64,000 bases of DNA from Pontederia crassipes (lineage: Eukaryota; Streptophyta; Magnoliopsida; Commelinales; Pontederiaceae): assembly GCA_030549335.1 (NCBI GenBank), contig JAUKPH010000023.1, positions 3,243,501 through 3,307,500 of the forward strand, in the 5' to 3' direction. This document shows, piece after piece, positions 1,011 to 60,258 of the stretch. Below the pieces are notes generated by a model, which was not told where the DNA came from, searched no databases, and worked only from the letters and a program-made list of their open reading frames with translations. Within the stretch, counting starts at the first letter, position 1. Each line of letters starts with the position of its first letter. Position numbers and translations under genes: made by a program.

Positions 1011-1177
1011 AAGATAATACTAAATATCCTTAAAACAAAATGATAATGCCGAATACAAAGGCTTTACAAAATTGACTACTACCAAATTATAACAAAAAGG
1101 ATCACAACTGTGATTAGGTGCTATAGTAGGCCTAGACACGGGATCAAAGATTATACAAGACAGTTGCCAATGTTGGA

Positions 1178-1341
1178 CGACGACAACAACAACAACAACA
1201 AAGCCTTATCCCACTAGGTGGGGTCGGCTACATGAATCATACGACGTCATATTCGTTGATCCATGTTCATGAGATTCGACATGGTTTTACGCTGGCTGTC
1301 GGGGCCTAACACAACCCTCCTCTTTTATCCGAGCTTGGGAT
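1178..1341 (-). mobile_element. RTE-derived short non-autonomous element (copy 1 only)
   Basis: On the minus strand this reads as the 5' end of the RTE LINE at 39665 (ttgtgttaggccccgacagc and onward) joined directly to the last ~60 bases of the same LINE (gccgaccccacctagtggga, aaggctttg and a TTG-repeat tail). It is flanked by a 16-bp direct repeat, agttgccaatgttgga (1162-1177) and agttgccaatgctgga (1342-1357), with one mismatch. Copy 2 has the empty site near 48740. Compared with the member at 51701 it lacks the outermost 5' bases. It would depend on RTE enzymes for movement. Confidence 0.85.
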
Positions 1342-1357: not shown

Positions 1358-3593
1358 CATGAAAGAGAATTCATATGCCAAGCCCAACATTTCTTCAATC
1401 ACAAATAATTTATAAGATTCACTTTGTGATTTTTTACTGGTCGAGGAAGAGAAGAAGAAACCGAAATCCTGCCAACAGCATTCTTTCAACAGAAATGATA
1501 CATTTTGTGTCTCTCAATTTTCAACTGATTGCACCAACTGTAGTTCAAGCTAAGCATATCAAAAGTGATCCCTCATAACATGCTGTAGCAATAATACTCT
1601 TAGACTACCGGTCATTATGGAAAATGCATTATGCATATGCTCATTTAGGCAAGTTCACGAAGCATACACCACTCATGATAGTCTTTATGTTTCTTCTTCT
1701 GAGCCAGTTTATGACAAAAATAAAACTTATAAACAAATAAGACAAAAATTACATTCAATTATAAAAGCCATTTGTCAATGCGAAAGCTAACTGAAGTTGT
1801 ACGCACCTCGATCCTATTTTCTTGACATAAAACCACTAGAAGTTTTTTTTTTTTATGAACAAAAGAGTAACCCCGAGCTGCAACCAACTGAACTCTGGGG
1901 TTATTCAATTTCAGAGAGGGCATACTTAATAACATGTTAGATAATGGATGCAACCATATACGAATTTGTTTTGGCATAATCCAACTGCATACCAAGTCGA
2001 GAACTGGTAGACAAATAAAAAATCTGTTAGACGTAATCTAGAAAATTCTTTATTTAATGAGAATTTCCCAGCACATTCACCTTTACAACATCTGAATCGC
2101 TTGCCAAATACATTTATATTTATTTACAGAATTACATGCTAATCACTTGACGTTCACTGTGAAGAATCAGTTTATGCGTGTTTTAATGATTGTTATGAGA
2201 AGGTGTGTATTCTATTTTCTCAGTTCCTTGTATAAAATGAGGAGACTAATCAATTTTTCTACATGATATTAAAAATATATAGTTTTTTGAGAAAAAAAAT
2301 GAAAAGATAGAGCATAACAAATAAGTTGGTTGGATCAGTTGATCTGTGAACAATAACCCTAAAAGAAACAATAGATAATGTCAGTTCCATGGCTATTCCA
2401 TTTTCGAATTTATTGGATGTTTCCTACAATAAAATCGATGATCTCGTCGGTAAATCTTCCAGTTTGAAGAATAGAGAGTTTTTTTATGGACATGTTGTTT
2501 TGAAACGTTTGAGGATTATCGCAAAATAAATGAACATAAATGTAAAATTAAGCACATTTCAATTCCATTGGAAAAGGAAAAAAAGGAAACAAACATCAAT
2601 GCTTAAAAATTAGCCCAAATCACATACACTATAACCAACTGTTGGATCCAGGATGTATTCCATGTTGGGTAAATAAAGATAACAAATTATCTAAGGAATA
2701 TGAAAATGAGGTATTGGGAAAAAAAATAAAAGCAATAACTCGTATTAATGAATTTACATAGAACCGGTAAGCTCTGAAAAAGATGAGCTTTCAGAAATAA
2801 TGGTTACCACAGTGATAAATGTGGTCCCAAGTAAATGTTAAATAATTATTGAAGAAGAGATATGATCAAATGAACCTGAAAATAAGACAATATAACACAG
2901 AATAAGGTTGTCGAATCATTAAGGTATGGCAGCTACAACTAGAATCTATTTAGACATGCAAAGCAAATTTTATGAAATCATAAAGTTCAGTGATGACCAT
3001 GATAATGGAATGAAGGGAAGAATTTTTAAAATGTGAATTGATAACACAACCAGAATATTGAGTTCATGATCATTTTCCAGCAATGGCACATTTGAAATTT
3101 TCAGCAGGTCAACCTGGAGTATCCTTTGTTTTCACTGCATAAATATAATAAATTGATCTGTTAAACAAAATGTAGTTTGAGATAGTCTTAGCTTTTGTTT
3201 AAGATTATTGAATAGGAAGAAAAGACTAATTAAAACTTAGAAACTATTAGGTTAACTTTTATCATAGATATCCCAGAATGATCACAATCCTTCAGAGCAG
3301 TTTTTTTATGTGATACTTCTTTGTGCCCTATTTACTCATCTTCATTACTTCCTCGAGTACACAAATGATGACTTATGTTTTTCTAATATGACAACTACAT
3401 AAAAAAAAGGCCTAATCTTATCTGACATTGAGTTGAAGTTAGCATATGGATGCAATTTGCAACTTGGGCATACTATTGTTGTAGATATGAAAATAAAATC
3501 ATTTGGCTTCCATGGCAGTTGCTGCATCCTTCATTGTACGAACATTTCATATAGTAATATTTCAAGCGACAGAATGAAAAGGGTATAGCTTAC
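1358..3593. other. AT-rich non-coding stretch, copy 1
   Basis: No convincing exon, RNA gene or transposon end was found. The stretch is AT-rich and collinear with 48755-52003 of copy 2, apart from two insertions present only there, at 49766 and 51701. It probably represents intron or 3' flank of the minus-strand HGSNAT-like gene. A short inverted repeat (aataacccc ... ggggttatt) lies near 1866-1906 in both copies. Confidence 0.5.
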
Positions 3594-37745: not shown

Positions 37746-39664
37746 TGTAACATCCGGTCTAATAAAAAAAAAAGAAAATAAAGCAAATGAAGCCCACCAG
37801 CCCGTACACCCTATTGTCCAATGTATAAAAGGGAGAGCCCTAACTTTTTCCCTTCCCCACCTACCAGCCGACAACCCCTCTCAAAAAGTCTCCATTTTCA
37901 TGCTATAGCAAACCCCTATCACCCATCTCACCTCTCTCCTAAGTTCTACTCGGCCAGCACACGAAAGGAGGCCATTTGAGAGCTACAGTAAGCTTCTTAA
38001 TCTCTCTCTTAGCACACTCACTCTCTCTCACCTCTCCCACTCTCTCTTATTTCTCCATTAGCACACGTGGACAGCAGCAAGGAAGGAGAAAGAGTGGATT
38101 GAAGCTAGAGGAAGAAGCTAAGATTTAGGACATTGTTATTAAGGTATGTTTGAGGGGATTCAAAACTCAAATCTCCCCTAATGATATTTTAATGTGTGGA
38201 TTAGGAATTAAAGAACAAACCTTTTGTTCTTAGCTGAATATTTGAGGAATGTGCATATAATGCTTCATGCTTCTCTAGATTACTATTCTATTGATATTCA
38301 TGATTAGAATGCCATGTGTTTCATAAATTCATGCTCTAGTTGCTCATTATGCTTAGTATTAAAATGTTCATTGTTGTTATGTGGCCTTATTATGAAAATG
38401 TTTAAAGCTCATGTACATTTATAATCTTGATTAGCATGCAAAATGTCTTCATGTGAAAATTTCATATAAATCATGATTAGAGTGTTAAGATTACTATAAA
38501 TAAAAGAAGCAACATATATCATTTTGATATATTGTAAATTTACCCACTCACCTTGCACTTTATTTTTTCAAGAATGTTTACTATATTTTCTCCCTCCCAC
38601 TTGTAACTTAAAGATTCCCTACAATGCCTTTTACTTTTCAATCACAAATAAAGTAATATGCAATGCATTCTCATGATGCATAAATGCGTATGCACCCTGA
38701 AATGCATCGTTTAAATATTCGTGATTAATTTCATATATTTATGTTCATATGCTATTGTATACTTGGAACTACTCAATCTTCTAAGACATGACTAGGTGTT
38801 GTCTTAGAATTCTAGACAGAGTGTCTATCCATTAATAATTCATAACTTATTGATTATAAGTTCAAATCCTATGATTCTGGATGAAATAAAAACTAGACTT
38901 ATTATGGTCTGCAATCTATGAATATCATCAATTGAACTATTTATAAGGGTCAAGAGAATTGGACATAGGTTTTATGTTCTAGCAGATTATTTTTCACTGA
39001 AATAATAATTATACCTTTCTCAATACTTTTTTATTTAACAATATTATAATTTTCCTAAAAGCTAGACTTCAGTAGTAGTTAGGCATAAAAATCATAAAAT
39101 TAAAATCCTTTTATACCCTTATAACAAAAATAGTTAATTCATCCTTTATTCCGTCAATGTTCTCAAACCTAACAAAAGAAGTCATATGGGTTGAAAAATT
39201 CATTTTTCCATATATACAAGTCCAAATAAGATTATTCTACTTTCCACCGAACCATTATAAAGTTCAATTTAACATATTTAAATTTCAAACCTAATTTAGT
39301 GTATCCTAATTGTGCCCTAATTTACAAGGTGGACTTGTATTTGATTCGAGACAAAATAAGTGGATGCTAAACTTATATCTTCCTGTATAAAACTCTTTTT
39401 AAGTGATTCTATCGGCCATGGAAAGCTAAATTCAAAATTTATAGAGGACGAATCACGAAGAAATGATCATCTCAATCAGAGGATTAATTTCAAATGAGGA
39501 AACTCACCTCAAACAACCGACCTTTTCGAATTTGTCCGGCAGTTCTGCTAGGGTTCGATCTCTGGTAATTTTTCGACTGTGAAAGGATAATTATTAGTAG
39601 CTTATATATATATTTTTCTATATTTTGTGAGGTCATATGGAGGTTCAAAAAAATGTCCCATTAA

Positions 39665-42600
39665 AGAAGGAGGGTTGTGTTAGGCCCCGACAGCCAGCGT
39701 AAAACCCTGTCGAATCTCATGAACATGGATCAACGAATATATTGTGTTAATGCTAGGTCGTTACCCGTAAGTAACGCGCTGTACAGCTCGGGTACAGTGA
39801 TAAGAGAGCAAGAGCCGCTGCATCCTCGCCTGAATGCAGTGTTAAATGAGCAAGGGCTACCACACTCTAATGGACGGAGGTGGTTAAAGAAGCTAGTTCA
39901 AGAGACTAAGGTCAGATTATGTTCTTGGAACATTGGGACGTTGAATGGAAAGCGCCTCGAAGTGGCATAAGTAATGGATCAGTGTAAGATTAGTATCTTA
40001 TGCTTGCAAGAAACTAGATGGGTAGGAGAGTGAAGTAAAAAGATTAGGTTAAATTATTCCAAACTTTGGTACACAGATAAGGTAAAGGGAATGAATGGTG
40101 TTGGTATTATCGCGGATGCAAAATGGAGGAAGAATGTTGTGGAAGTTAAAAGGATTGATGATCGAATCATATCCGTGAAAGTAATTATTGGAAAGGAGAC
40201 TATGAACATTATTAGTGCATATGCACCCCAAGTAGGAGCAGAATCACATCTCAAGGAGAAGTTTTGGGCAAATATGGAGGGTTTGATTGAAAGTATACCA
40301 ACAACCGAGAAAGTTTATATTGGGGGAGACCTTAATGGACATGTTGGTAAAGAGACAGGACCACATGCAAGGGTTCATGGTGATTTTAGTTTTGGAGAAT
40401 TGAATGTGGAAGGACAAACTATTATTGATTTTTCTTTAGCATACGACCTTAAGATTATCAACACTTATTTTAGGAAGAGAGGAGAATATTTAATCACATA
40501 CAAAAGTGGAACTCATAGGTCTCAAATCGATTTTTTCTTGACAAGAAATACTGATAAAAGACGTTGTACTAATTGTAAAGTAATTCATGGGCATGGGGTG
40601 ACCACACAACATAGATTGTTAGTTCTTGATATGCAAATGAAATGTATAAAACCAAAATCTCGAACAATTTTTTATCGAAAGATCAAGTGGTGGCAGTTAA
40701 AGGGGGAGAAGCGAGAGACTTTTAGAAGTAAGTTATTAGAGGAAAGTGTGTGGAAGTTAGAATGAGATGCTAGTATCATGTGGGAGAATGTGGCAAAAAA
40801 GGTTGAAATTGTTGCTAAAGCCATTTTAGGATAATCAAAAGGTTTTGGACCACGAGATAAGGAGACTTGGTGGTGGAATGAGGAGGCCCAAGAAAAGGTG
40901 CGTAATAAGAAGAATTGTTTCGAGGCGATACACTTGGACAATAGTTCTGACAATTGGGAAAAGTATCATTTGGCGAAAAGGGAGGCTAAGAAGACAGTTA
41001 GTGATGCTCGTGCTAAAGCATATGAGGGGTTTTATAAGGAGTTAGGGACAAAGGTTGGTGAACAAAGAATTTACAAGATTGCAAGGAATAAAGAGGAGGA
41101 GTCAAGAGATTTGGATCAAGTAAGATGCATAAAAAATAAAGTTGACAAGGTTTTAGTTACTGAGGGAGATATTAAGAACAGATGGGAAGAGTATTTCTAT
41201 AAGTTATTTAATGATGGATGTGAAGGTTCCCGTTGTGATTTGGAGGACTTGACAGTTAGCAAATGTGAGCTTAATAGGTCATTTTATCGTAGAATTAGAG
41301 TCTCGGAGGTTAGCGAAGCTCTTAAGAAAATGGAAAAGGGTAAAGCCGTTGACCGGATGGTATACCGATTGAAGTTTGGAAATGTTTAGGAGAAAAGGTG
41401 TGTTGTAGTTATGTAAACTATTTAATGAGATTTTACGATCGAAAAAGATGCCTGATGATTGGAGATTAAGTACATTAGTTCCTATTTACAAAAATAAAGG
41501 GGATATTCAGAATTATGCAAATTATAGAGGGATTAAACTTATGAGTCACACAATGAAATTATGGGAAAAAGTGATTGAGCATATATTAAGAATGGAGACT
41601 AATATTTCTAAGAGACAATTTGGGTTCATGCCAGGAAGATCCATTACAAAAGCGATTTATTTACTAAGAGGGGTGATGGAGAAGTATCGAAGTAGGAGAA
41701 GAGACTTACATATGATTTTCATTGACTTAGAGAAGGCGTATGATCGGATACCAAGGGATGTACTTTGGAAAGTCTTGCAAAAGAAGAGGGTGAGTGTTGC
41801 CTACATTAAAGTAATACAAGATATGTACGATGGGGCATTGACTAGGGTTAGGACATCCGGAGGCAAGACAAATGAATTTCCTATAGGAATTGGCCTACAT
41901 CAAGGATCAGCTTTAAGCCTGTATCTATTTAACTTAGTTATCGTTTTTATAACCGAGAGTATCACAGAAGAGGTACCTATGTGCATGCTATTTGCGGATG
42001 ATATAATACTTTTAGCGGATTCAAGAGAAGAGATTAATACAAAATTAGAAATATGAAGAAATACGTTGTAGTCAAAGGGTTTTCGTTTAAGTAGGAATAA
42101 AACAGAATATATGCATAGCAATTTCACAAATAAACAACTTAGAGACGATTTGGAAGTTAGGCTAGGGGAGGATATAATTTCTCAAGTGACAAAGTTTAAA
42201 TATTTAGGATCAATTGTAAGACAAGATGGTGAGATTGATGACGTTGTTAATCATAGAATTCAAGCTGGTTGGTATAAGTGGAGGAAAGCCACTGGAGTTC
42301 TTTGTGATAGAAAAGTACCCAATAAAGTTAAAGAAAAATTCTATCGTACTGCTATAAGACCGGCAGTGTTATATGGTAGTAAATGTTGGACTATGAAGGG
42401 ACAACATGAACGTAAAGTGGGGGTAATCGAAATGAGGATGTTGAGATGGATGTGTGGTCATACAAGATTAGATAAGATAAGGAATGACCATATACGTGAA
42501 CGAGTCGGAGTGGCTCCTATTAGTGAGAAAATGGTAGAAAATCGTTTGAGATGGTTTGATCATGTTCAGAGAAGACCATTAGATGCGCCAGTAAGAAGAG

Positions 42601-42792
42601 TAGATCAAATAATCTAGAGTCCGATTAAAAGAAGGAGAGGGAGGCCAAGGCGAACACTTGGCGAACTAATAGAGCAAGATCTATTGGTGAATAATATACC
42701 GAAAGGTTTGATTACTAATAGAGCGAAATGATGTCGTATGATCCATGTAGCCGACCCCACCTAGTGGGATAAGGCTTTGTTGTTGTTGTTGT
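39665..42792 (+). mobile_element. RTE-clade LINE, nearly full length (3.1 kb)
   Basis: The 5' end (aggagggttgtgttaggccc) is the same as in the short elements at 1178, 49766 and 51701, whose outer ~45 bases are missing here. The 3' end is gccgaccccacctagtggga, aaggctttg and a short TTG repeat ending at 42792. One long ORF encodes endonuclease and reverse transcriptase with no ORF1, as in RTE elements. It lies inside an LTR-type repeat. It is probably the family, though not necessarily the copy, that mobilised the short elements. A target duplication was not identified. Confidence 0.88.
39896..42731 (+). pseudogene. RTE endonuclease-reverse transcriptase
   Basis: The endonuclease begins VRLCSWNIGTLNGKRLEVA, then LCLQETRWVG, GVGIIAD, IISAYAPQVG, YIGGDLNGHVG and SQIDFFLTR near 40520. 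RT motifs: LVPIYKNKGDIQNYANYRGI (41480), QFGFMPGRSI (41620), MIFIDLEKAYDRIPRDVLW (41715), LHQGSALSLYLF (41900) and the catalytic box FADDIILLADS (41990), which is intact. The C-terminal part is FKYLGSIVRQDGEIDDVVNH ... GWYKWRKATGVLCD and a final basic RRRGRPRRTLGE. Frame is lost by stops and shifts at several points (for example near 39970, 40035, 40765, 41388 and 42055). It would nick DNA and copy its own RNA. Dead, but only moderately decayed. Confidence 0.87.
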
Positions 42793-43077
42793 AAGTAGCT
42801 ATTGTAGGTGCTTGAAATCTTAAATGATGATATCAATGGACAATCACCTTATTTATCATAATTAAGTATTTTAATCCCAATTAAACTTATTAATCATAGT
42901 TAAACAAATATATTATGTTATTTATAATTTTATAATATATTCCTAATAATCTAATATTAATAATAATATTCCTCAATTTGAATATAATTACTATATGCAA
43001 ACATGACAATATGGGGATCTAAACTAACTTAATATATTAATTGAATAATTGATTATGTAAAAATGATGTTTGTGACA

Positions 43078-43800: not shown

Positions 43801-44289
43801 CCTGACTTGCTAACGGTAAGGAGCTATGGCTAGTGGACTAGTCTCCTTTTTATCTTGGTCTTCTTCTACGACTACTTTGCTGCTGCTCTTTTGCGTTCTC
43901 CGAGAACCTAGAGAGGAGGAAGAGGATCACCATGGAAGATGTCGAAAGGGACATAATCGTGAACAATCTGCACCAGGACGTACCTTCCACTCCCTCCTTC
44001 TCAGCGCACAACAACAACCGCCGCCACCGCCGCCAACAGCGTGACAATAACTCCAACACTTCCAGCTCTTTCAGAGGCATAATCCTCCAAGATTTTGTTA
44101 TAACTCTTACAACTCAGTCCACTTCCCTCGAGCCCGTTCCAAGCCCAAGTTCACAGTAGTACTTGTTCTTTAACAATGTAAAATGATATGTCCTTTTTAA
44201 ACTCTCTGTTGGGAACCGAAATGTAATAACAAAATGTTAGGGTTTAGTCTTTAAAATGTTTGATTTCTTTTTCCCAACTTTGCAGATAT

Positions 44290-46200
44290 TTTCCACTGAA
44301 TCCATAGCTGCTAGACGAGATCTAAACCAGAAGGAAAGAAGAAAAGACAAACAACTAGAGTAAATGCTGAGAAATGGGATTTTTGAGCAACCCAAAAGCT
44401 CCTATAATCCAATACAATGAATATGTAGCATATTGGTTCAAAGAGCAGAAAAGATCCCCTTCATCCTTCCTTTCTTATATTTATATATAATTTCACGTAC
44501 ATTCAGTTATTTATCTCATATGGGCCAATTATTTGCCCATGAGTCAGTTATTCAAAGAGTATTCTGCCCATGGTAAAAATTTAGACCAAGTATGTGGGCT
44601 ATCCATAACAAAACTTCTCAAATATTGTTGCATGCATCTATTAAGAACCTCTGTTTGTCCATCTGTTTGGAGATGGTAATCTGAGCTCATGCAAAGTTTT
44701 GTATTATTGAGCTTAAAAAGCTCCTTCCATAATGAACTTAGAAATATTGAATCCCTGTCTGAAATAATAGTTCTAGGAAATCCATGTAATTTGACCACTA
44801 TGTCGATAAATAGTCAGGCAACTTTTGATGTAGAGTAGTCTGTAGGCAAAGGTCCTAAGTGACAATATTTAGACAATCGATCTACTACTACAAAGACGGC
44901 TGTAAATTCATTTGAAATTGGTAAAATAGTGACAAAGTCCATTGAGATATCTTCCCATACTCTATCTAGAATAGGAAGAGGCTGTAACAAACCGAGTACA
45001 GTATTTTATTTTTTGACATACGAGACATTTCCGCACAAAATTCTCAACTGTTGATTTTATTCCATCCCAAAAAAAATCAGCTGCTAATCTTTTGTACATC
45101 TTGAGAATCCCCAAGTGTCCCCAAGAGTACATCTTGTGATCTAAACCAAAAGGAAAGAAGAAAAGACAAACAACTAGAGTAAATACTGAGAAATGGGATT
45201 TTCGAGCAATCGAAAAGCTCCTGTAATCCAATACAATGAATATGTAGCAAATTGGTTCAAAGAGCAGAAGAGATCCCCCTTCATCCTTCCTTTCTTATAT
45301 TTATATATAATTTCACGTACATTCAGTTATTTATCTTATATGGGCCAGTTATTTGCCTCACATGAGTCAGTTATTCAAAGAGTATTCTGCCTATGGTAAA
45401 AATTTAGACCAAGTATGTGGGCTATCCATAACAAAACTTCTCAAATATTGTTGCATGCATCAATTAAGAACCTCTGTTTGTCCATCTGTTTGGGGATAGT
45501 AATTTGAGCTCATGCAAAGTTTTGTATTACTGAGCTTAAAAAGCTCCTTCCAGAATGAACTTAGAAATATAGCTGTCTGAAATAATAGTTCTAGGAAATC
45601 CATGAAATTTGACCACTATATCGATAAATAGTCAGGCAACTTTGTATGTAAGCAAAGGTCCTAAGTGACAATATTTAGACAATCGATCTACTACTACAAA
45701 GACTGCGGTAAATCCATTTGAAATTGGTAAATAAGTGACAAAGTCCATTGAGATATCTTCCCATACTCTATCTAGAATAGGAAGAGGCTGTAACAAACTG
45801 AGTACAGTATTTTATTTTTTGACATACGAGACATTTTCGCACAAAATTCTCAACTGTTGTTTTTATTCCATCCCAAAAAACATCAGCTGCTAATCTTTTG
45901 TACGTCTTGAGAATCCCCAAGTGTCCCCAAGAGTACGTCTTGAGATCTAAACCAAAAGGAAAGAAGAAAAGACAAACAACTAGAGTAAATGCTGAGAAAT
46001 GGGATTTTCGAGCAACCGAAAAGCTCCTATAATCCAATACAATGAATATGTAGCAGATTGGTTCAAAGAGCAGAAAGGATCCCCTTCATCCTTCCTTTCT
46101 TATATTTATATATAATTTCACGTACATTCAGTATTTATCTCATATGGGCCAATTATTTATCTCATATGGGCCCGTTATTTGCCTCACATGAGTCAATTAT
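44290..46200 (-). mobile_element. Tandemly repeated Ty3/gypsy fragments in the FD-like intron
   Basis: Fossil gypsy sequence on the minus strand. A segment of about 810 bp occurs two and a bit times, with starts near 44321, 45139 and 45946. Each full unit holds part of the integrase: the zinc-binding HHCC region (44962-45231, 45768-46037) and part of the catalytic core (best at 44544-44798). No LTR pair, gag, protease or reverse transcriptase is present. Broken, with several disruptions. The repeat units are similar to each other, so the tandem duplication is younger than the insertion. Confidence 0.85.
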
Positions 46201-46739
46201 TCAAACCACATTACATCTCATGCTACATTATATTATTAAATTACTGCTGAATTTCCTAAATATTGCTTTGTATTATATATTGTCTTGCTTCTTGTTCTTC
46301 AAATATATTTTTTTTAACTTGTGACAAAATTCTTCAAATATGATGGTTTCTTTCTCCTTCGTTTATCTCTTGGATTAATCTCTTCCACTCCATCTGTCAC
46401 AGTTTTCCTCTCGGGGACTCTGACGACGAGCGATGTTGTGCCCTCGCCGGACACCTCGCGATTACCAACGGGACTCGGCCATACTTTTGGGCACTTCTTG
46501 GGCTGCCACAGTAGCAGCAGCAACAGCTATGTTCCATTCTTCGCCGGCATCCACTCGGACGGTTTCGATGGTTTCCCGTCCTCTGCTGAACGGCTCACTG
46601 CTTGCCGGGCCGAGAGGCGACCTCAACAGCAGTCGAATGTCGGCATCGGCGACAGGGTTGACTGACGTAGGCAGCGAATGATGAAAAACCGGGAGGCGGC
46701 TGCTCGCTCTAGAGCCAGGAAACAGGCACTCAATCCATC

Positions 46740-46742
<3 letters not shown>

Positions 46743-46819
<77 letters not shown>
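46743..46819 (+). repeat. (CT)n(CA)n microsatellite in the FD-like bZIP intron
   Basis: About 29 CT repeats followed by about 10 AC repeats, located between the basic-region exon and the zipper exon. Length is likely variable. Confidence 0.97.
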
Positions 46820-47248
46820 TTCTAACCAAAGTTTGGAGTTCTAGACATCAGAGTAATCCAAGCTGCACTGCCTCAATAAACATCCACTAGATTTTCTTTT
46901 CTTTTCTTTGGCCACCCCCGTCTTCTCGCTGGATTTTGAAATCTCATGTTACATCATGCAACACGCTTACACATATGAACTAGAACTAGAAGTTGCTCAA
47001 CTTGTGAAGGAGAATAGAAAGCTGGAGAGGCAGTGCGGGCAAGTAATTACGTAAACAACAGGAAAACGAGAAGAAGAAAAAAAATCTTCCCTTGGGACTG
47101 ATTACTTATTTCTCTTCTATTTCGGGTAGCTGGAGAAATAAGGTTTTGATAGGTCTCTATTCTGTGGACACCTGCGTGCGGCAATGGCAGCTCAAGCGTC
47201 TGCCGCCACCAAGAACAAGCTGCAGAGGACATCATCAGCTACATTTTG

Positions 47249-47605
47249 GGCGAAGAGAGCGTTCCGCCTGAAGGTTCATCTATACCAGATGCCAATGCTT
47301 CACATCTCTCCCTCCCCTCGTTTCTTTCTTTCTTCTCGCCGCACAAAGAAAATTGTGTTTGTACAAATATGGCATGAGGGAGAACCCATTTAGCATAAGG
47401 ATAGGACAGCTTTATGTACTTGTTGCCTGATGCCTAATGTTTCTGCTGAAGAATCAGTAACCTGTTCCACCTTTGTTTGTAATATATGGACATATAGCTA
47501 GCCCTTGCAGCAGCATTCCTTGTGATATAATATCTCAATGTGCTTTGTTGACCCTTTCGTAACCAGTGCAGCAGGTTCCTCTCTAGTGCTTTCTTTTCTT
47601 CCATT
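47249..47605. other. 3' flank of the FD-like gene
   Basis: No coding feature. This AT-rich stretch separates the FD-like gene from copy 2 of the duplicated segment. Its counterpart upstream of copy 1 lies outside the window, so the left edge of the duplication is undefined. Confidence 0.4.
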
Positions 47606-47616
47606 TCAATTTCGTG

Positions 47617-48563
47617 TTATCGCGCGTTTTCACATTTTTGCAGCACCTTGCAGTAGAATGCGTGCGAAGTTGCCATCCTCTTCCTCCTTTCGGGATTTCG
47701 GCGACGGTAAACTATTGCTGTCATATTAAATGGAGTAGAGGCCATTGCCAGGCTTTTTAGTCGCGCCAAAATTTTAGGCAACTCTATGCACATGGAAGTG
47801 TTGTTTGGGCCACGACAATGAAACAACCGACGACTGTAGAAGCTTTTGGAGCATCATTTATTGAAGGCAAGATTTAACTACAAAGAGGATAATTAACTAC
47901 AATATATATAGGAGGCTAAGATGGTCTTCCAAAGGATCCAATGCTTCCATGGGAGAGCCATTGAGGTTCGGCCAGCTAAGCACCAATCTGGCAGAGCAAA
48001 TCATGGAGGCCGCCAGGCAGGTGACTCTGCATAGTTGTGTCGTTTTCCTTCCACAGGAGTATGTCTTGGTTCAGTGCTGTGCCACCTGAATGAACAGACC
48101 ATCACTTGTGTTTATGGAATGATAGTCCTGTAGCCACTCAACATCACTCTTTGTGGTGAAACAGGGTGTCCTTTCCCAGTAGGCACTCCGTACCAGTTCT
48201 TCTGTTTGGACCATCTCAGCTGTCTCTCCGATCCCCAACCAATTGGTTTCCAAGGGTGTGTTCTCTCCACTTCTTTTTCTTCTCAAAAAAAAAAAATCAT
48301 CTGTTCAAAACTTCAAATCTTCTTTCGAGTGGACTGCAACATAAGGCAAGTGATGTAAAGGCTTAAATACCCAGGTCCACCAGCTTCTTCAAGTGCCCAC
48401 GCCTGTCGAAGTCATATGGATCACCTGTTCGGTGGACATTGTCTTTGACCATTGCATCAAAAAAGCAGACTCGAAAACCTTTTTTACCCAGTGGGCGTTG
48501 CAGACACAACACCTGGGTTAGATCCAAAGCAAACGTATGACACATAGAAAACATGGCATCCAT
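47617..48563 (-). pseudogene. Unrecognised minus-strand exon-like ORFs, copy 2
   Basis: Counterparts of the copy-1 segments: 48363-48563 (contains LGKKGFRVCFFDAMVKDNVH), 48071-48286 (SAYWERTPCFTTKSDVEWLQ, ending LFIQVAQH) and 47617-47826. The middle segment differs from copy 1 at EMVQTEELVR versus EMVQQKNWYW through two compensating indels, which leaves the downstream frame intact. I do not recognise the gene. Preservation of the open frame in both copies is the only argument for coding capacity. Confidence 0.3.
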
Positions 48564-48754
48564 AAGATAATACTAAATATTCTTAAAACAAAATGATAAC
48601 GCCGAATACAAAGGTTTTACAAAATTGACTACTACCAAATTATAACAAAAAGGATCACAACTGTGATTAGGTGCTATAGTGGGCCTAGACACGGGACGCC
48701 TCTCTCCGGAGATGCACAAAAATAAAAGATTATACAAGAAGTTGCTAATGCTGG

Positions 48755-49765
48755 ACATGAAAGAGAATTCTTATGCCAAGCCCAACATTTCTTCAATCAC
48801 AAATAATTTATAAGATTCACTTTGTTTTTTTTACTGGTCGAGGAACAGAAGAAGAAACCGAAACCTGCCAACAGCATTCTTTCAACAGAAATGATACATT
48901 ATGTTTCTCAATTTTCAAGTAATTGCACCAACTGTAGTTCAAGCAAAGCATATCAAAAGTTTTTTTTTTTCTGAACAAAAGAGCTATGTGAATAACCCCG
49001 AGCTGCAACCAACTGAACTCTGGGGTTATTCAGTTTCAGAGAGGGCATACCACATACGAATTTGTTTTGGCATAATCCAACTGCATACCAAGTCGAGAAC
49101 TGGTAGACAAATAAAAAATCTTATAGACGTAATCTAGAAAATTCTTTATTTAATGAGAATTTCCCAGCACATTCACCTTTAAAACATCTGAATCGCTTGC
49201 CAAATACATTTATATTTATTTACAGAATTACATGCTAATCACTTGACGCTCACTGTGAAGAATCAGTTTATGCGTGTTTTAATGATTGTCATTGATATGA
49301 GGTGTGTATTCTATTTTCTCAGTTCCTTGTATAAAATGAGGAGACTAATCAATTTTTCTACATGATATTAAAAATATATATAGTTTTCTAGAAAAAAATG
49401 AAAAGATAGAGCATAACAGATAGGTTGGTTGGATCAGTTGAACTGTGAACAATAACCCTAAAAGAAACAATAAATAACGTCAGTTCCATGGCTATTCCAT
49501 TTTCGAATTTATCGGATGTTTCCTACAATAAAATCGATGTATCTCGTTGGTAAATCTTCCAGTTTGAAGAATAGAGAGTTCTTTTATGGACATGCTCGTT
49601 TGAAAAGATTGAGGATTATAGCAAAATAAATGAACATAAATGTAAAATTAAGCACATTTCAATTCCATTGGAAAAGGAAACAAACATCAATGCTTAAAAA
49701 TTAGCCCAAATCACATACATTATAACCAACTGTTGGATCCAGGATGTATTCCATGTTGGGTAAAT
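48755..49765. other. AT-rich non-coding stretch, copy 2
   Basis: Collinear with 1350-2676 of copy 1. No supported gene, RNA or transposon end. Confidence 0.4.
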
Positions 49766-49971
49766 ACAACAACAACAACAACAACAACAACAAAGCCTTA
49801 TCCCACTAGGTGGGGTCGGCTACATGGATCATACGACGTCATTCCGCTCTATTAGTATTCGTTGATCCATGTTCATAAGATTCGACAGGATTTTATGCTG
49901 GCTGTCGGGGCCTAACACAACCCTCCTCCTTTATCCGGGCTTGGGACCGGCTATAAAATATAGGCGGAGTT
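49766..49971 (-). mobile_element. RTE-derived short element (with full 5' end)
   Basis: The minus strand begins aactccgcctatattttata and gccggtcccaagcccggata, continues with the RTE 5' sequence (gttgtgttaggccccgacag), and ends with the RTE 3' sequence plus a long TTG repeat (about eight units). It differs from the member at 51701 by a few bases and retains a little more RTE 3' sequence (aatactaatagagcggaatg). It forms the 3' end of the chimeric insertion. Confidence 0.88.
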
Positions 49972-50089
49972 GAGATGTGTCAAAAACATGCAAATCAAAT
50001 TAACTGTGCAATATAGAGTGAAGATTTTGGAAATTTGTAAGGTAAACCTTTATAGAAGTGGAAATAACTAGAAAAACTGAAACCATTAC

Positions 50090-50221
50090 CTGTATTCGTC
50101 ACTGACACCATAAGCAAACAATATGTCAGGAAATTTCTTTAGTAAAGACACTGCACATGCATTCATCAAATTCAATGCATTCTTATCATTGGGCTTTTCA
50201 AACGAATGGATAGCAGAAAAT
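50090..50221 (-). pseudogene. THG1: THG1 exon 2 (tRNA-His guanylyltransferase fragment)
   Basis: The minus strand reads FSAIHSFEKPNDKNALNLMN, then ACAVSLLKKFPDILFAYGVS and DEY, matching the Thg1 family (FxKPND...ALxLMNxCA...FPDIVFAYGVSDEYS). The second metal-binding aspartate is in the SDEY motif. The acceptor tttttgcag precedes 50221 and the donor GTAATGG follows 50090; phase matches exon 1. Thg1 adds the extra G to the 5' end of tRNA-His. Later exons are absent: the segment passes into a short element and then into unrelated DNA, so it is a gene fragment. Confidence 0.85.
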
Positions 50222-50763
50222 CTGCAAAAAAACTAAAATTATCTTGGGAAACAGTGACAAGGACATTTCAACTAGTTTCCATTTTGCACCTCAACCCTGA
50301 TCAATAAATTGTCTAAGGTGGCACATTAAGATATATCATAGGTGGGTTCAAAAGAAGAACAGTTAGCGGAATATTTTTTCTTTTTCTTTTTTTTTTTTTG
50401 CCAAACACTAGCTACATGACCATTCTATCTCATATCCATTATCACGATGACATAGTAGTCCAACTATAAATAATTATCTATTGTCATGAATGACTTAACA
50501 CAAACTTTATCTCATTCTTCTTGAAATATTCACGATATACCATAGCTACTATTATAAGGTTTTATAGCCATGTGAAGGAACACAATTGAATAAACAAGTT
50601 CCATAGCTAATCTATTGGGTTGACTGTTTTTGTTCCGCCTGTTCGTATCACATTTCAAAGTAGTAGATAGATAACAATACTCCAACTGTAACTCATAGCA
50701 TTAAAGCCCCAAATGAAAAAGACATTTTTTTTCTTCTGCAATTGGCTGGATTAGTGCACTCAC

Positions 50764-50867
50764 TTGTGAAAATGACATCCATCAATCCTGACAACAATCC
50801 AATTGCAAGGGGGCAACCTATCATCAGCTTCAAAATTCTTTACATACTCATATTTGCTATTTGCCAT
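50764..50867 (-). pseudogene. THG1: THG1 exon 1 (tRNA-His guanylyltransferase fragment)
   Basis: ATG at 50867 starts MANSKYEYVKNFEADDRLPP, then CNWIVVRIDGCHFHK. MANSKYEYVK and VRIDG are hallmarks of eukaryotic Thg1; the RIDG aspartate binds catalytic metal. A donor GTGAGTG follows 50764. The coding frame is intact. Only 16 bases of the leader are present before the insertion boundary, so either the transcript start or a 5' truncation lies here. Intron 1 (50222-50763) is retained. Confidence 0.87.
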
Positions 50868-50883
50868 GCCGTCAAAAGAGTGT

Positions 50884-51700
50884 GGTAAATAAAGATAACA
50901 AATTATCTGAGGAATATGAAAATGAGGTATTGGGAAAAAAAATAAAAGCAATAACTCGTATTAGTGAATTTACATAGAACCGGTGAGCTCTGAAAAAGAT
51001 GAGCTTTCAGAAATAATGGTTACCACTGTGATAAATATGGTCCCAAGTAAATGTTAAATAATTATTGAAGCGATGTGATCAAATGAACCTGAAAATAAGG
51101 CGATATAACACAGAATAAGGTTGTCGAATCATTAAGGCATGGCAGCTACAACTAGAATCTATTTAGACATGCAAAGCAAATTTTATGAAATCATAAAGTT
51201 CAGTGATGACCATGATAATGGAATGAAGGGAAGAATTTTTAAAATGTGAATTGATAACACAACCAGAATATTGAGTTCATGATCATTTTCCAGCAATGGC
51301 ACATTTGAAATTTTCAGCAGGTCAACCTGGAGTATCCTTTGTTTTCACTGCATAAATATAATAAATTGATCTGTTGAATAAAATGCAGTTTGAGATAGTC
51401 TTAGCTTTTGTTTAAGATTATTGAATAGGAAGAAAAGACTAATTAACGCTTAGAAACTATTAGGTTAACTTTTATCATAGATATCCCAGAATGATCACAA
51501 TCCTTCAGAGCAGTTTTCTTATGTGATACTTTTTTGTGCCCTATTTACTCATCTTCATTGCTTCCTCGAGTCCACAAATGATGACTTATGTTTTTCTAAT
51601 ATGACAACTACATAAAAAAAAGGCCTAATCTTATCTGACATTGAGTTGCAGTTAGCATATGGATGCAATTTGCAACTTGGGCATACTATTGTTGTAGATA
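50884..51700. other. AT-rich non-coding stretch
   Basis: Collinear with about 2669-3490 of copy 1. No supported feature. Confidence 0.4.
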
Positions 51701-51879
51701 CAACAACAATAACAACAAAGCCTTATCCCACTAGGTGGGGTCGGCTACATGGATCATACGACGCCATCGTTGATCCATGTTCATGAGATTCGACAGGGTT
51801 TTACGCTGACTGTCGGGGCCTAACACAACCCTCCTCCTTTATCCGGGCTTGGGACCGGCTATAAAACATAGGCGGAGTT
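51701..51879 (-). mobile_element. RTE-derived short element with 18-bp target duplication (copy 2 only)
   Basis: The minus strand runs from aactccgcctatgttttata, through the RTE 5' sequence (gttgtgttaggccccgacag) and atggatcaacgatgg, directly into the RTE 3' end (cgtatgatccatgtagccga) and a TTG-repeat tail. The perfect 18-bp repeat atactattgttgtagata flanks it (51683-51700 and 51880-51897). Copy 1 shows the empty site with a single copy of that 18-mer near 3466-3483. About 179 bp, no coding capacity. Confidence 0.95.
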
Positions 51880-52003
51880 ATACTATTGTTGTAGATATGA
51901 AAATAAAATCCTTTGGCTTCCATGGCAGTTGCTACATCCTTCATTGTACGAACATTTCATATAGTAATATTTCAGGCGACAGAAAAAAAATGGTATAGCT
52001 TAC

Positions 52004-52138
52004 AATGTTATTTTGAGGACTCTTCCAATAGAATCCTTGAATTACAATGACAGCAATGTTGGATGCTACAAGAATGACGATGCTAAGAGAATGTTTTCCC
52101 ATCCACTCCAGCACCATAGTAGGAACATAAACATGAAC
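52004..52138 (-). CDS. HGSNAT-like acetyltransferase exon, copy 2 (frame intact)
   Basis: 135 nt, 45 codons, phase 0 at both ends. It reads VHVYVPTMVLEWMGKHSLSI, then VILVASNIAVIVIQGFYWKS and PQNNI. Acceptor ggacag, donor GTAAGC. This matches the late membrane-spanning exon of plant HGSNAT-type acetyltransferases. Three codons present in copy 1 (YEYRFPT versus YVPT) are missing, without loss of frame. Joining to the exon at 60259 spans an intron filled by the L1 LINE. The next exon, usually ending LGIYWKL, was not found downstream, so completeness is uncertain. Confidence 0.72.
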
Positions 52139-52411
52139 CTGTCCATAAAAAAATTTGTGTCAAATAAATTAAACACAGTACAAATACAAACAACATGCAA
52201 GTGCATTTATCATAAACTAACAACTTGAGTTAGTTCAGTAAAAAATCTCCAAAACCATTTGGCTCCATGTTAGCAACATCAAAAGAAATCCAAACTGCGC
52301 CACCACCCTCCCGCTTCCCATCCCCGGCAGTCCCTGCCGGCGGTGCCACCCCCGTCTCTGGCGTCCCCCGCCGGTGGCGCCACCCTAGATGCGATATTGT
52401 GTTCAGTGAAT

Positions 52412-53942
52412 ATGCCAAGGAGAAAATGGACTGTTGATAATGAGGGAAAGACAACAAGAAACGTACAAAGACCAGGGACATGCCATCCAATGATGATCAC
52501 CAAGCGACAAATTCAATACTACCGCTGCAGGAGCTGGGGACATATGCAACGCGAGTGTCGAGACCCGATCAAATGTCTTGCCTATGAGGGATATGGTCAT
52601 AAAAAAGCTGCCTGTCCTACCAGGCAACATACGACTCCATGGACAACCCGACAAGAGGCGCCAATTGAAGCAGAGGTTCATCCTCAGGATCATATAGTGA
52701 TTGATGCTCCATGGGGACCAGCGATGCGATCAAACCTGGAGGTCCTGCGCAACTGCGGAGTTGGGTCTAACAGTGGTGGTTTCATATCATTGGAAGATAT
52801 CAGAGCAGCACTGAAAGCCCAAGTGGGGAACGGGGCTCTGGTTCGCGTCTCCTGGTTAACAGAGTCTAGCATCTTTCTTTGGACTGGGGATTTTGGTGAT
52901 AAGAGAGCAAATCACGAGGCAACCATTGGTTCTACAAGGCAGAGTCAAGATCGCCTGGCAACCTTGGTCGCCGGCTATTGGGGCGAAGAGATCTCAACAG
53001 GGGCGAAAACTAGTGTTAGAACTAAGTGGCATTCCTTTCCATCTCTGGTACCCAGAAGTTGTTGCAGCGATGGTTTCCTTTGGGCGAATGAACGAGGTCT
53101 TCTTCCCTCTTGATACTAATGCAATGCCTCCTGTAAAGGTGGAAGTTGAAATGAGATCGGATACGACCGTTCCATCAGAGATAATTGTTAGATCTGGGGG
53201 CTATGAGTATGTGATTAAAGTTGCTGTAACTGCTGATCATGGAAGATACCCATCCTGGGCAGCGGTGCTGTCGGCGGCGAGTAGGTCGCCGCCGGAGAAG
53301 ATTCAAACCTGGAAACCGAAAATCCAGCGCCGAGATTTGGGGATCCTGCAGATCCCACGTGATCCTGATCCAATGGCAAAATTTGTTATGCGGTTGAAGG
53401 GAACAACAAATCAGGAGGCAAATCAGGTATCAGTTAGGAAAGAAGTTAATGAGACAAATCCGGAGCTAGAGGATGGAGAATCCTCTACAGTGATGGGTGG
53501 AGCCCATCTAGAAACTCCAGAAACGACTGGTCCTGAGCCCACCAATGTGCAACCTCTAGTGGATCACAGGCCCAACGTGATGCAGCCCCAGGAAGCTACC
53601 TCTCCCTGGGTGCAGCAGCCTTTGGGAGAGCTCAAGCCCCATGCGATGGAACCAGAAGATGGCCACATCATGACTATTCGCCCACAGCCTCAAATTGAAG
53701 ATTGCCATAAAATAGATATAATGCTCCTGGAAGCTGATCTTCCTGAAGTGGCACTGCATCTTGGCGAAGAGGGGAATAGGACATCTGCCGCAGTAGCAGA
53801 ACAATCAATGTGCGAAATAGAGCTCGTGGCTGCAGTTATGTCAGCATCACGAAGACAGGGGCCAAAAGCTTCCAGCAGGCAAGGGGATCTACGTGTAATC
53901 ACTAGGTCCATGACGTCGGGATCGCAGACTCTTCACGGATGA
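52412..53942 (+). pseudogene. L1-type LINE ORF1, copy 2
   Basis: First ATG inside the element is 52412 (MPRRKWTVDNEGKT). Zinc knuckle YYRCRSWGHMQREC (first Cys is Tyr here; Cys in copy 1), then a degenerate second knuckle. One extra T near 52890 shifts the frame, after which 52893-53942 is open to the end. The C-terminal part is acidic and proline-rich (EDGESSTVMGG...). The TGA stop overlaps the ORF2 ATG as ATGA at 53939-53942, a possible termination-reinitiation arrangement for ORF2. Confidence 0.8.
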
Positions 53943-56016
53943 AAGTTCTTACGTGGAATGTAAGAGGTCTCTGCAATCCAAGTAGGAGAGTGACACTAAG
54001 GAGATACATTACCCAGTGGAGAGTGGATATTGTCCTGCTACAAGAAACAAAACTTGAAGCGTGTGATACAACTACATGGGGGCAGATTGGAGGCTCATGG
54101 TTACAAAAGTTCTCTGCTTTAGACTCTGTTGGCAGATCCGGGGGTGTTTGATCGGCTGGCAAGAAGTCATATTTGATGTGAGAGATATTACAATGGGGAT
54201 GCACTCAATCAACATTATATTATCAAGACGAATGGATGACCGCCAATTCCTAATTTCATGCATTTATGCCCCTTCAAATAATGGTCGACTGCAGTATGGG
54301 ATGAGCTAAGAACACTGCGGACAGCACATGTGGGGACTCCATGGTTATTGGGGGTGACTTCAATGCTACCTTAAATATTGATGACAGGCCCATGATGAGA
54401 CAGGGCAGAGACACTGGTGCTGATGCCTTCCGCGACTTTATAATTGAGCAGGGATTGATCGACTATCCAGTCCCCAACTGCCGATTTACGTGGCGCAGCT
54501 CAGCATCCTCTTCAGCCAAATCTCGCATGATCGATTCCTGGGATCCGTTGAATTGGCTGAAGCTCTCCAAACAGCAGAAGTCTCAGCTCAGGACCGCCCT
54601 TTCTCTGACCACACACCTTTGGTATGGCAAGCAAATGACACAAGAGGGTTAAGAACATATTTTAAATTTGAGAAAGCCTGGTTTCTCGAATTAAATTTCA
54701 GAGATCTGGTGAAGGACAAGTGGCAAAGTCTGCCTAGTGATTCATCGGCGACCAGGACCTTGGACAGTAAATTAAAACAAATGCGCAAATTTCTAGTTGA
54801 ATACAAAAGACAACGCCGGTTGGAAAATGATCAGAGGAGAGAAGCCTTAATTGACATTCGTAACTTAGATCGAGGAGGATAAGGAGGAAATCATCTGGAG
54901 GCAACGATCTCGTCAACTTTGGCTATGCGAGGGCGACTCCAATACCAGATTTTTCCACACTTTTGCTAGCCACCGACGACGGATCAACCACATTGATCGC
55001 CTTAAGATCAATGAGATTGAATTGCATGGCCGGGAACAGCTGGAGGGAGGGGCAGCAGCTTACTTTCGGAATTTCAGTAAAGAAGACAACCGAGCGAGTG
55101 GCACTGGTGTGGTAGCGACATGGAGCGTCTAACCTCGGATCAAGCTGCAACTTTGGTCGGAGTAGTCTCCGAAACAGAGGTTCTGACCGCCATTCGAGGA
55201 CTCAAATCAGAAGCTGCACCAGGGCCAGACGGGTTCTCTATCCTATTCTATAAAAAATTCTGGTCAACTGTTGGCTCTGATGTCATGGCAGTAATTCATG
55301 AATTTTGTTCTGGGAATCATGGATTTGAGCGCTTAAACCATTTCTATTTGCTCCTAGTACCGAAGATACAATCAGTAGAAAGAATTGAGGAATATAGACC
55401 CATCGCCCTGTCAAATGCAATTTATCTGATTGTGGCAAAAGTTCTGGCCAACAGACTCAATGAGGTTTTGGCATCTCTAGTGCACCCTGTGCAATCTGCT
55501 TTTATTAAAGGCCGCTCTGTAACTGACAGCTATAGTAGGGCTTCAGAGATTATTTCGTTATGGCGGAGGACAGGCAAAAAGGGCTTCTTATGGAAGGTTG
55601 ACTTCTCCAAGGCATATGATTCAGTGAATTGGACATTCCTCTGGTTCTCTCTTCATAGGCGTGGCTTTCCAGAGGTATGGATAAGTTGGATGAAAAGATG
55701 TGTACGCACTGTGTCCTTCTCTATCCTTATCAATGGTAACCCAGCGGGAGGTTGGGTGCAGCCACAGTGTGGGGTGCGACAGGGCAGTCCGCTTGCGCCA
55801 GTGTTGTTTGTCCTTGCAGCAGATGCCCTTGCTAGATGCACATTCTCTGCATGTCAAACTGGAATTTTTTCGGGGTTTAAATCAGAACCAGGTCAAGACA
55901 CCCTCATCCCAATATTACAATATGCTGATGATACAATTTTTTATTTGATTGAGGGATCAGTAGAGGCAGCAAGAAGACTTGCTGCATTGCTGGACATATT
56001 TGGTGACTTCTCAGGA
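53939..56016 (+). pseudogene. L1-type LINE ORF2, copy 2, endonuclease and RT part
   Basis: The endonuclease starts at ATG 53939 (MKVLTWNVRGLCNPSRR), with LLQETKLEA, GGDFNATLN (54345) and SDHTP (about 54605); several frameshifts interrupt it. From 55120 the RT block is open: [69 protein letters not shown] and the catalytic box QYADDTIFYL. The frame ends where the nested LINE enters at 56017. The remainder resumes at 59052. Confidence 0.87.
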
Positions 56017-59000
56017 TTTTTTTTTTTTGAGGGAAAAAAGGATGACCGCCAGGTTAGGTGGTTGTCATCCGGTGTATATATAACTATGGGATGAAAATGA
56101 TATACAAGTGTAAGATCTCAAAGTGAGAGCAGAGCAAAAACAAAAGTATATCAACTATCCAAAACCCCAAAACGCCACTCTCGAAGAAGGAGATATGGTG
56201 TACAATACGCTCAATGTGATATCGCTCCCCACACAAAATCACCCAGTTACGCTGGAGGCTCAGGAACCAGCCAAAAAAGATGCTAGTGGCGCTCTTCATC
56301 TCTGTCTCTACCGTGTCAATGCTCGAAACGACTGCCATAGGGCCTGAGAATCTGAGGGGAACCGACCCCCAATGGCCATCCCCTGCCAAATGCCTCGTGT
56401 TGTTGGGCACTCAAAAAATAGATGGTCAGCGTCCTCCTCTGCCTCACCACACAAAATGCAAGTCGTGTCCGTGTGGGGCACCCAACGTGCCCTGTATGTC
56501 CTAGTGAGGAGCCGGCCCCGCTGCATAAGCCAAGCGAAGATCTTGACTTTCAGCGGTATCCGTGATCGCCAAATGAGCCTACAATCTGTCCAAAACTCCT
56601 CTGACGTCAAGTATGGAAGGAACCTGATGTATAAGCTGCGTGCCTCCGATAGCCATACCCATCCATCAAGTCTGGAATGGTCGGGACGGTAGGGGGCTAT
56701 CCTCCGATGGAGCTTCAGAAGCTCGGTGATGCGCTGGTCCGTGAGGGCTGATCTAAAAAGAGGGGTCCAGGATCCAGAGCCGACATCACCAGCCTCAGAC
56801 CATGTCTCCGTCACTGTCGCGTCAGGATGTGCTGCCAGAGCATATAGGCGGGGGAAAGCCTCTGCGTGGGGAATCCCGGGGAACCCACTGTGTCGCTAAA
56901 AAGAGAAAAGCTCTCCTGTGCTGAGTGATGGTGTCATGAGCAGGCGCACCCGTGGGAGCAGTGCTGCCACTCCCCTCCAAAAGGATAAAGCCCATCGATC
57001 TCGTCTCCCAAGATAGATCACGCCCGTAACATGTGAAGAAAACCAAGCGCCATAAGCTGTCCTTAGGACCCATGATCCGCCTGACCCATCGAGCAAGAAG
57101 AGCCCAGTTGGTGCAGCGGACATCTCGAATTCCCAGTCCTCCCTGAGAGGTGGGGCGACAGACACTGCTCCATGCAACAAAATGAACACCTCGTCTATCA
57201 GATCCGCACCCCTGCCAAAAAAGTCTACTCAAAGAGTCCATACGCCTGATAATCTAGGCCGGTGCATGAAGAACCGTCATATAGTATGTCGGGAGCGCCG
57301 AGAGAATGGAGCGTAGCAGGATGAGCCGGCCACCACGGGATAGTAGTCGCGAGCTCCTGCCCTCAAGCCTCCGCTCCATGCGCTCGAGGACTGGGGTCCA
57401 CCCCCGGGAGCCGATGTGACGATCGGAGAGAGGGAGGCCCAAGTATGTGATCGGCAAGGCCGATCGAAGTACGGAGCTCAGCTGCACATCGGGCTGCCTC
57501 CTCTGGGACCATGCCAAATGGGATGAAGGAGGATTTAGCATGGTTTATCTGGAGGCCAATCGTCGCACCAAAGAGCTCTACGAGGATGGCCACACGGCGA
57601 GCCTCCTGCTCAGAGCCCTTTATGAAGAACACCGTGTCGTCCGCATATTGTAGTATGCTGAAGAGGCCAGCCGTGCATGATGTCTGAGTACATCGGGCGA
57701 GTGCATCGGTAGCTAGGACGAAAAGCATGGTTGCCAGCGGGCTGCCCTGGCGAACCCCGCGCTGCGGCTGGACCCAGTCACCCGTCCTCGCCCCATTGAC
57801 CAGGACCGAGAAGGAAGCGGTAGTGATGCATCGCTTCATCCACGCAATCCAGGTCTCTGGGAAGCCTCTGACATCCAAGGAATGCCAAAGGAAAGGCCAT
57901 GAGATGGTATCATAAGCTCTGGAGAAGTCGACCTTCCATAGGAAGGCCTTGGCCCTCCTCCACTGTGCAATGATCTCCGATGCAATGATGTAACTGTCGA
58001 TGATGGCTCGGCCCTGGATGAAAGTTGATGTGCTGGGTGGATAAACTCAGGGAGCAGCTCTCGGAGCCGATTCACTAGTACCCTCGCCGCCAGAAGGTAG
58101 ATGGCATTGGACAAGGCGATCGGCCAATAGTCCTCCACTCGCTCCGCCAGGGTGCGCTTCGGGAGTAGGAATAGTAAGAACCGATTAAGGCGATCAAAAC
58201 CCCGATTCCCACTGATGAACTCTCGAATGACCGCCAACACGTCTTCACGCACAAGTGACCAGAACTCTCTGTAGAAGAAAATCGGAAAGCCGTCTAGGCC
58301 TGGAGCGGCCTCACTATTGAGATCCCGAAGGGCCTCAATAATCTTGTCCTCAGTAATAGCCTGCATTAACAAAGAGGACTGATCGTCAGTAAGTCGGAGA
58401 ATATCCCCTAGGGCCCAACGTCGTGGCCATGGAGTCTGTCGCCGAGTGGATGTATGAAAGTAGGATGTGATGGCTGCTCCAATGCTGTGGTGGCCAGAGA
58501 TCCGATGTCCCTGAACCTCTATCTATCTGACCGATCATGTTCGCTCCCCTACGAGAGCTCGCATACAGGTGAAATAATCGAGTGTTAGCATCCCCCTCCC
58601 GAAGCCAAGTCTACCGGGGGCGCTGCCTCCGCTGAATCTCCACTATCCTATCCTCTCGTTGGATGGTCTCCTGGGCTCGCCTGCGGCCATCCAACTCTGT
58701 GTTTGTGAGGTGACAGGAATCCTCCAGACGATCCATCTGAGCGATCACCTCTAAGGCATCCGTCCGACGTCACGCCCGGTCCTCACGAATCTGCCGCCTG
58801 TGCTGACTGAGAAAGGACCGCAGGCTGTCAAGGCGGGAAGCCAACGTCCTGGCTGCAGTGTCTGGGCTACAGTGTCCGACGCCGCCACGCTCTGCCAATG
58901 CTCTGTCACCAGTTGACGAAAACCATCCTCTAGTAACTAGGATCGCTCGAAACGAAAGAGTGAGCGCTATCTCTGATCATCATTGGACCGCTATATGATT

Positions 59001-59865: not shown

Positions 59866-60258
59866 CTGGAGAGAATTATGATATGTGCTTGTGACTCTGT
59901 ACATTCCTTTTTGTAACCTATAACTAAAATTTTAATAAATGGATGATTGACTCAATGTCAACATCCTATTTTTCTTTCAAAAAAAAAAAAAGAAATCCAA
60001 ACTACCAACTTATTCTTGCGTATTATTTTCTTTCAAGCTCAGGACACAAAGAATAAACCATTATGAAACAATGAAGATATGTTGAACTGGCACAAATCTA
60101 CAGAGGTGACTCACAGGAATCTATGCAGTTATTTAATCGATGAGGTATCATGACGACTATTCTCTAAACTTACAATAGAGCAAAGTTCCACCCGCATGCA
60201 TGAAGTTTATTGCATATACCAAGATAAAATACCAGTATTTCAAATATCAGGAACTCAC

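Follow-up and report, generated by a model that had tools for sequence, protein, structure and literature searches.

A THG1 gene start and an RTE-type short element within one target-site duplication in Pontederia crassipes

The window, by which we mean the whole stretch of 64,000 nucleotides of Pontederia crassipes DNA that was analysed, contains a segmental duplication of about 13 kb. Comparison of the window with itself placed copy 1 at 1-13248 and copy 2 at 47605-64000; the copies differ by 4.9% substitutions (509/10455 sites in nine blocks, 2.4 to 7.6% per block). The same comparison revealed that copy 2 carries 1117 bases together with one 8-base target duplicate, both of which are missing from copy 1. 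Read on the minus strand, the additional segment begins with 16 nt of leader and continues through exon 1, intron 1 and exon 2 of a THG1 gene, 118 bases of intron 2 and a short element that closes with a (TTG)9 tail. The coordinates of these parts and of the related elements are collected in Table 1.

Table 1. Features of the composite insertion, its target site and related elements in the window
Feature	Positions	Strand	Remarks
Target-site duplicate GGTAAATA, TTG-tail side	49759..49766	.	copy 1 holds the repeat once, 2668-2675
Target-site duplicate GGTAAATA, THG1 5'-edge side	50884..50891	.	repeat search and self-comparison
Empty target site, duplication copy 1	2668..2675	.	flank joining and alignment
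16 bases upstream of THG1 start codon, 5' edge of insertion	50868..50883	-	
THG1 exon 1, 104 nt, ATG at 50867	50764..50867	-	domain and solved-sequence matches
THG1 intron 1, 542 bases, retained	50222..50763	-	GTGAGT...TTTTTTTGCAG (GT...AG)
THG1 exon 2, 132 nt, followed by donor GTAATG	50090..50221	-	domain and solved-sequence matches
Start of THG1 intron 2, 118 bases (putative)	49972..50089	-	from donor GTAATG after exon 2
Complete RTE-type short element, (TTG)9 tail to 49767	49767..49971	-	5' end AACTCCGCC at 49971
Complete short element, copy 2 only	51701..51879	-	perfect 18-base target-site duplication
Short element only in copy 1, 5'-truncated	1175..1340	-	17-base target-site duplication with one mismatch; tail edge approximate
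Broken LINE, apparently 5'-truncated, RVT_1 domain	39660..42792	+	two ends match the short element; 5' edge approximate

The two exons together provide 236 coding nucleotides without a stop or frame break. The product used as query comprised the 78 translated residues and a last Ser that we filled in (79 aa). It matches Thg1 (PF04446, E 7.3e-33) over profile positions 1-74 of 130 and four distinct solved THG1 sequences (E 6e-25 to 1.6e-23), and by these matches the encoded protein is the start of tRNA-His guanylyltransferase. An earlier note on this DNA had the gene piece starting 16 bases before the THG1 ATG and keeping intron 1 with good splice sites, and both statements agree with the minus-strand reading. 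Its suggestion of exon shuffling goes further than the sequence shows: the THG1 piece stops within intron 2, ending ...GACACATCTC directly before the short element. To look for downstream THG1 exons, four stretches were read in three frames on the minus strand and compared with Thg1, two at E up to 0.1 (45000-49766, 50884-55800) and two at E up to 0.01 (500-5500, 40000-45000); none gave a match. With the 79-aa product as query, tblastn of the entire window returned four rows, one for each exon and two more at E 1.6 and 6.8. As the piece covers no more than 74 of the 130 positions of the Thg1 profile and includes just 16 bases in front of the start codon, it is probably a gene fragment without function.

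The short element that follows the intron 2 piece ends in the longest pure TTG run of its family in the window (27 bases; 15, 18 and one interrupted run in the others). Its parts match both ends of the broken LINE, 78 bases of its upstream part matching LINE positions 39662-39739 at 95% and 83 bases of its last part (3' end and tail) matching 42710-42792 at 96%, so it appears to derive by internal deletion from the LINE at about 39660-42792. The first 38 bases of the short element are missing from this LINE copy, which is itself taken to be 5'-truncated. The LINE contains an RVT_1 domain (E 1.6e-26) and an Exo_endo_phos_2 match below the cut-off, and its best solved-structure matches include R2 and L1. 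In Table 3 of Ohshima, (TTG)n or (TTGATG)n is the terminal repeat of all seven RTE families of flowering plants, and 224 of 233 L1 families have poly(A) (PMC3747384). The TTG-type tail being typical of flowering-plant RTE families, the LINE and the short elements are provisionally called RTE-type here, a label given by the tail. When the LINE reverse transcriptase was compared by tblastn with viral_contigs, a viral collection, five stretches fitted a pattern and no relative was confirmed. The LINE begins approximately where one arm of an old inverted pair ends (26156-27370 and 38496-39662, about 1.2 kb, 72% identity); the region at 26060-26220 was considered as its empty site, with divergence too high for a firm target-site duplication.

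A family profile was built from the composite's element, the two other short copies and the two ends of the LINE, and it recovered these same sequences and nothing else in the window up to E 10, which gives a family of four members in 64 kb. Both sister short copies set the duplicated segments apart, the one at 51701-51879 being present only in copy 2 and the one at 1175-1340 only in copy 1; this distribution is most simply read as movement of the family after the duplication. Differing amounts of the LINE interior are missing from the three short elements, and ACTAATAGAGCGGA, beside the deletion point, is kept only in the composite's element, so at least two deletion forms exist. A tRNA-headed SINE was considered and rejected, as ARAGORN detected no tRNA in the window and Rfam gave no match at the gathering score. 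Literature searches with letter strings of the short element, and for plant RTE internal-deletion elements, returned no match. Among the pairs in Ohshima's Table 1, Bov-A2, RTESINE1, MAR4 and RTE1-N1_LA combine the 5' and 3' ends of an RTE LINE, a make-up that the short element would share; all four are mammalian, unlike the element described here, and the plant RTE pair of that table, tobacco TS SINE and RTE-1_STu, has a tRNA-type promoter (PMC3747384).

The boundaries of the insertion are defined by two alignment blocks, one of which stops at 2675/49766 while the next starts at 2668/50884, so that their copy 1 ranges share exactly 8 bases. When the flanks in copy 2 are joined without the insert, the site in copy 1 is restored with 2 differences in 124 aligned bases, none of them at the junction. 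Of 200,000 segments of 1117 bases drawn at random from the copy 2 region, none had a direct terminal repeat of at least 8 bases. Alignment, repeats and joined flanks all support the earlier statement that the segment is absent from copy 1 and flanked by an 8-bp repeat. Its edge at 49766 needs a small correction; the base A at this position may belong to either the repeat or the tail, and the insertion proper is taken here as 49767-50883. The empty site in copy 1 and the target-site duplication round the whole segment support its arrival as an insertion. Judged from the two copies only, this most likely took place after the segmental duplication.

The insert combines a target-site duplication round its whole length, an empty paralogous site and a 3' edge at the element's own (TTG)9 tail, and the tail meets the duplicate as expected from the earlier note. 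The short element alone has no anchored flank repeat of 3 bases or more (its longest common flank word is 4 nt). As the 8-base duplication belongs to the composite and the element has none of its own, either the gene piece and the element travelled together or the gene piece was attached in the course of the element's insertion; that they form one flanked unit had also been claimed before, and this claim holds. The 5' edge of the element (AACTCCGCC) lies at the same base as in the only other complete copy (51701-51879), and the intron 2 join therefore falls at the apparent true start of the element. The inferred nick sites of these two insertions, TATTTAC and TATCTAC, are alike in 6 of 7 bases, a degree reached by 0.2% of random pairs; this likeness was noticed post hoc and holds for one of the two sisters, the copy at 1175-1340 being without it. 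Speaking against every reading that involves target-primed reverse transcription (TPRT) is the length of the duplication, which at 8 bases is shorter than the 17-18 bases of the two sister insertions and the 10-20 bases quoted for LINEs (PMC2104539). On balance, we propose that RTE-type TPRT produced the segment as one composite insertion, most likely after the duplication, with a probability of roughly 0.85 by our own estimate. TPRT at the tail is well supported.

Other classes of mobile sequence were compared with the insert and rejected. Processed retrogenes have their introns removed and carry a poly(A) tail, and this class is ruled out by the retained intron 1 and the TTG tail. A hAT or other Pack-type DNA transposon has terminal inverted repeats, and the ends of the insert, ACACTCTT... 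and ...TTGTTGTTG, are by eye not inverted repeats. Helitrons have a 5' TC and a 3' CTRR end and make no target duplication; neither these ends nor the 8-base target-site duplication fit.

How the THG1 piece and the short element came to be joined is a separate question from how they were inserted. The earlier note had proposed TPRT of one unspliced transcript running from THG1 into the element. TPRT at the tail stands, while joining in one transcript is one of several joinings that fit. Our first choice is nevertheless of this kind, a 5'-transduction in which the RNA copied was an unspliced read-through product of a THG1 gene whose intron 2 held the element; we give it somewhat less than even odds. 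A THG1 gene elsewhere in the genome would carry the short element in sense orientation within intron 2, and nascent, unspliced RNA started at the THG1 promoter would run through it. An RTE-type enzyme would then recognise the 3' end of the element, prime at a nicked target and copy the element, followed by intron 2, exon 2, intron 1, exon 1 and the 16 nt leader.

The anatomy of the composite is consistent with such an event: the upstream DNA is in the element's sense, its outer edge lies at a gene start just before the ATG, and the element is complete. Shared sense and the gene-start edge favour both the 5'-transduction and a template switch (discussed below). Sense, gene start and completeness also match the human LINE-1 5'-transductions reported in PMC13174262, where 15 of 17 are in sense, 15 originate from the beginnings of transcripts and the elements are predominantly near full-length. 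The retained intron 1 is less surprising under this reading because a transcript that has kept the intronic element must also have kept intron 2. Several points count against it. The parental element in intron 2 is a postulate. The leader of 16 nt is short for a full-length transcript. Six 5' gene pieces of the human set end at splice donors (PMC13174262), a comparison in which the unspliced intron 1 counts against 5'-transduction. Private substitutions number 3/142 in the composite's element and 2/139 and 4/142 in its sisters (the row of the LINE ends, 6/136 with four at the ragged 5' edge, was left out of the comparison); the element thus has no more private changes than its sisters and gives no sign of an earlier residence in THG1, with counts too small to decide. 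An exact DNA pattern of the element's 3' end had no match in viral_contigs and genome_contigs, and a tblastn search with THG1 exons 1-2 confirmed no relative among 6 stretches of viral_contigs and 35 of genome_contigs; as these collections hold viruses and prokaryotes, both results are uninformative on the plant parent.

The retained intron 1 favours a repair mechanism, in which RNA of the element alone was inserted by TPRT and a break on the 5' side was filled from THG1 DNA by synthesis-dependent strand annealing. Such filler-DNA capture is known in plants with the same layout as here, an element and gene-bearing DNA between one pair of target duplicates in the order duplicate, element, gene-bearing DNA, duplicate (PMC3503983, PMC3445842). 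In the published model for Brachypodium Bradi3g10010, an inserting element caused a break, a fragment bearing the gene served as filler, and target duplicates of 10 bp border the element and one end of the gene (PMC3503983). Introns would survive in a DNA copy, and filler repair would explain why the intron is intact and why the piece ends arbitrarily in intron 2, with no need for an element resident in THG1; the private changes of the element, no more numerous than those of its sisters, also suit it. The sense orientation and the edge just before the start codon would then be coincidental, and we consider this origin unlikely.

Joining at the RNA level could alternatively have taken place between two molecules, the RTE-type enzyme completing a short-element RNA and then jumping to THG1 pre-mRNA. 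A fungus provides documented chimeras between LINE or SINE sequences and other RNAs, bounded by short direct repeats (PMC2104539), and such chimeras are discussed for mammals in PMC13174262. A jump of this type would explain why the element is complete at its 5' end, why both parts share one sense and why the edge falls at a gene start. It requires an unspliced THG1 RNA as acceptor with entry within intron 2, and no plant RTE case was found in the literature searched, for which reasons we rate it lower again, as a rather improbable route.

Joining purely at the DNA level fares worse. If a genomic stretch of THG1 already bearing the element had patched an unrelated break, introns would be retained and the 8-base repeat would be a duplicate of staggered ends, for which any short length is permitted; the edge would then have met the end of a TTG tail by chance, a rare position for a family of four members in 64 kb, and we regard this as very improbable. 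Least probable of all is an insertion older than the duplication followed by precise loss from copy 1 between the 8-base repeats, which would likewise leave a clean single repeat and which the earlier note had also disfavoured: the deletion would have to be exact, the neighbouring minus-strand frames searched above hold no Thg1 match, and arrival as a flanked unit would hold regardless.

Under the preferred 5'-transduction, the closest counterparts are the human LINE-1 cases, in which first exons (of MAP3K13, FHIT and RAP1GDS1) lie in sense upstream of a near-complete retroelement with a target-site duplication round the whole; the human cases involve L1, poly(A) and several splice-site joins, whereas the composite is unspliced, ends in (TTG)n and contains a non-autonomous short element of a plant (PMC13174262). 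The grass filler-DNA movements (Wicker 2010 via PMC3445842, PMC3503983) likewise place an element and a gene fragment within one pair of short duplicates. The elements described there are MuDR, Helitron and one unclassified (PMC3503983), in contrast to the TPRT-tail edge and the gene piece in the element's sense found here. Retroelements of plants are known to have moved host gene pieces in the cases of Bs1, Rider/sun and a TRIM, all of which are LTR elements, unlike the tailed non-LTR composite (PMC13317346). According to a 2026 review, 5'-transduction has not been reported in plants (PMC13317346). Among the matches listed in our searches none concerned transduction or capture by a plant LINE or SINE, as judged by title, the subscription literature being mostly outside the search. 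We tentatively suggest that the composite may be the first plant 5'-transduction, in which an RTE-type enzyme, acting on an intronic short element in a nascent unspliced transcript, moved first exons to a new place together with an intron and splice sites. Only the 5'-transduction reading would make it unprecedented in plants. If that reading is true, splice-ready gene-start exons could be supplied by any plant gene that bears an RTE-tailed element in sense within an early intron. Moved gene pieces that bear introns are readily attributed to DNA-level copying, and a TPRT-tailed, duplication-flanked composite with an empty paralogous site offers a clean test object. Joining at the RNA level would open the way to screening whole genomes for this capture route, by looking for host DNA that lies immediately upstream of RTE-tailed elements.

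Mobile sequences in the window include LINEs, a MuDR-type DNA-binding domain, remains of retroviral-type polymerases and TTG-tailed elements, a set that fits plant DNA. On the minus strand of 45000-49766 there are two separate integrase zinc-binding domain matches in different frames (PF17921, E 2.9e-11 and 1.2e-11), the remains of an LTR-type element. Two inverted arms of 334 bases (18794-19127 and 23588-23921) are 86% complementary and lie 4.46 kb apart; the ORFs between them contain the MuDR-type DNA-binding domain and a SWIM match just below threshold, and the whole looks like a Mutator-like element. Between 18200 and 37100, at least 14 families of 119-300-base repeats occur in parallel order, often with a spacing of about 1.9 or 3.9 kb, and form a decayed array of larger repeats. 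Two further segments are present only in copy 2. The first (56019-59051, 3033 bases) starts with a T-run, is inserted in another LINE and has minus-strand ORFs that resemble reverse transcriptase by eye, with AGGATT as a possible 6-base duplicate. The second (61647-62650, 1004 bases) lies within a run of AT repeats and contains tandem repeats of about 50 and 131 bases.
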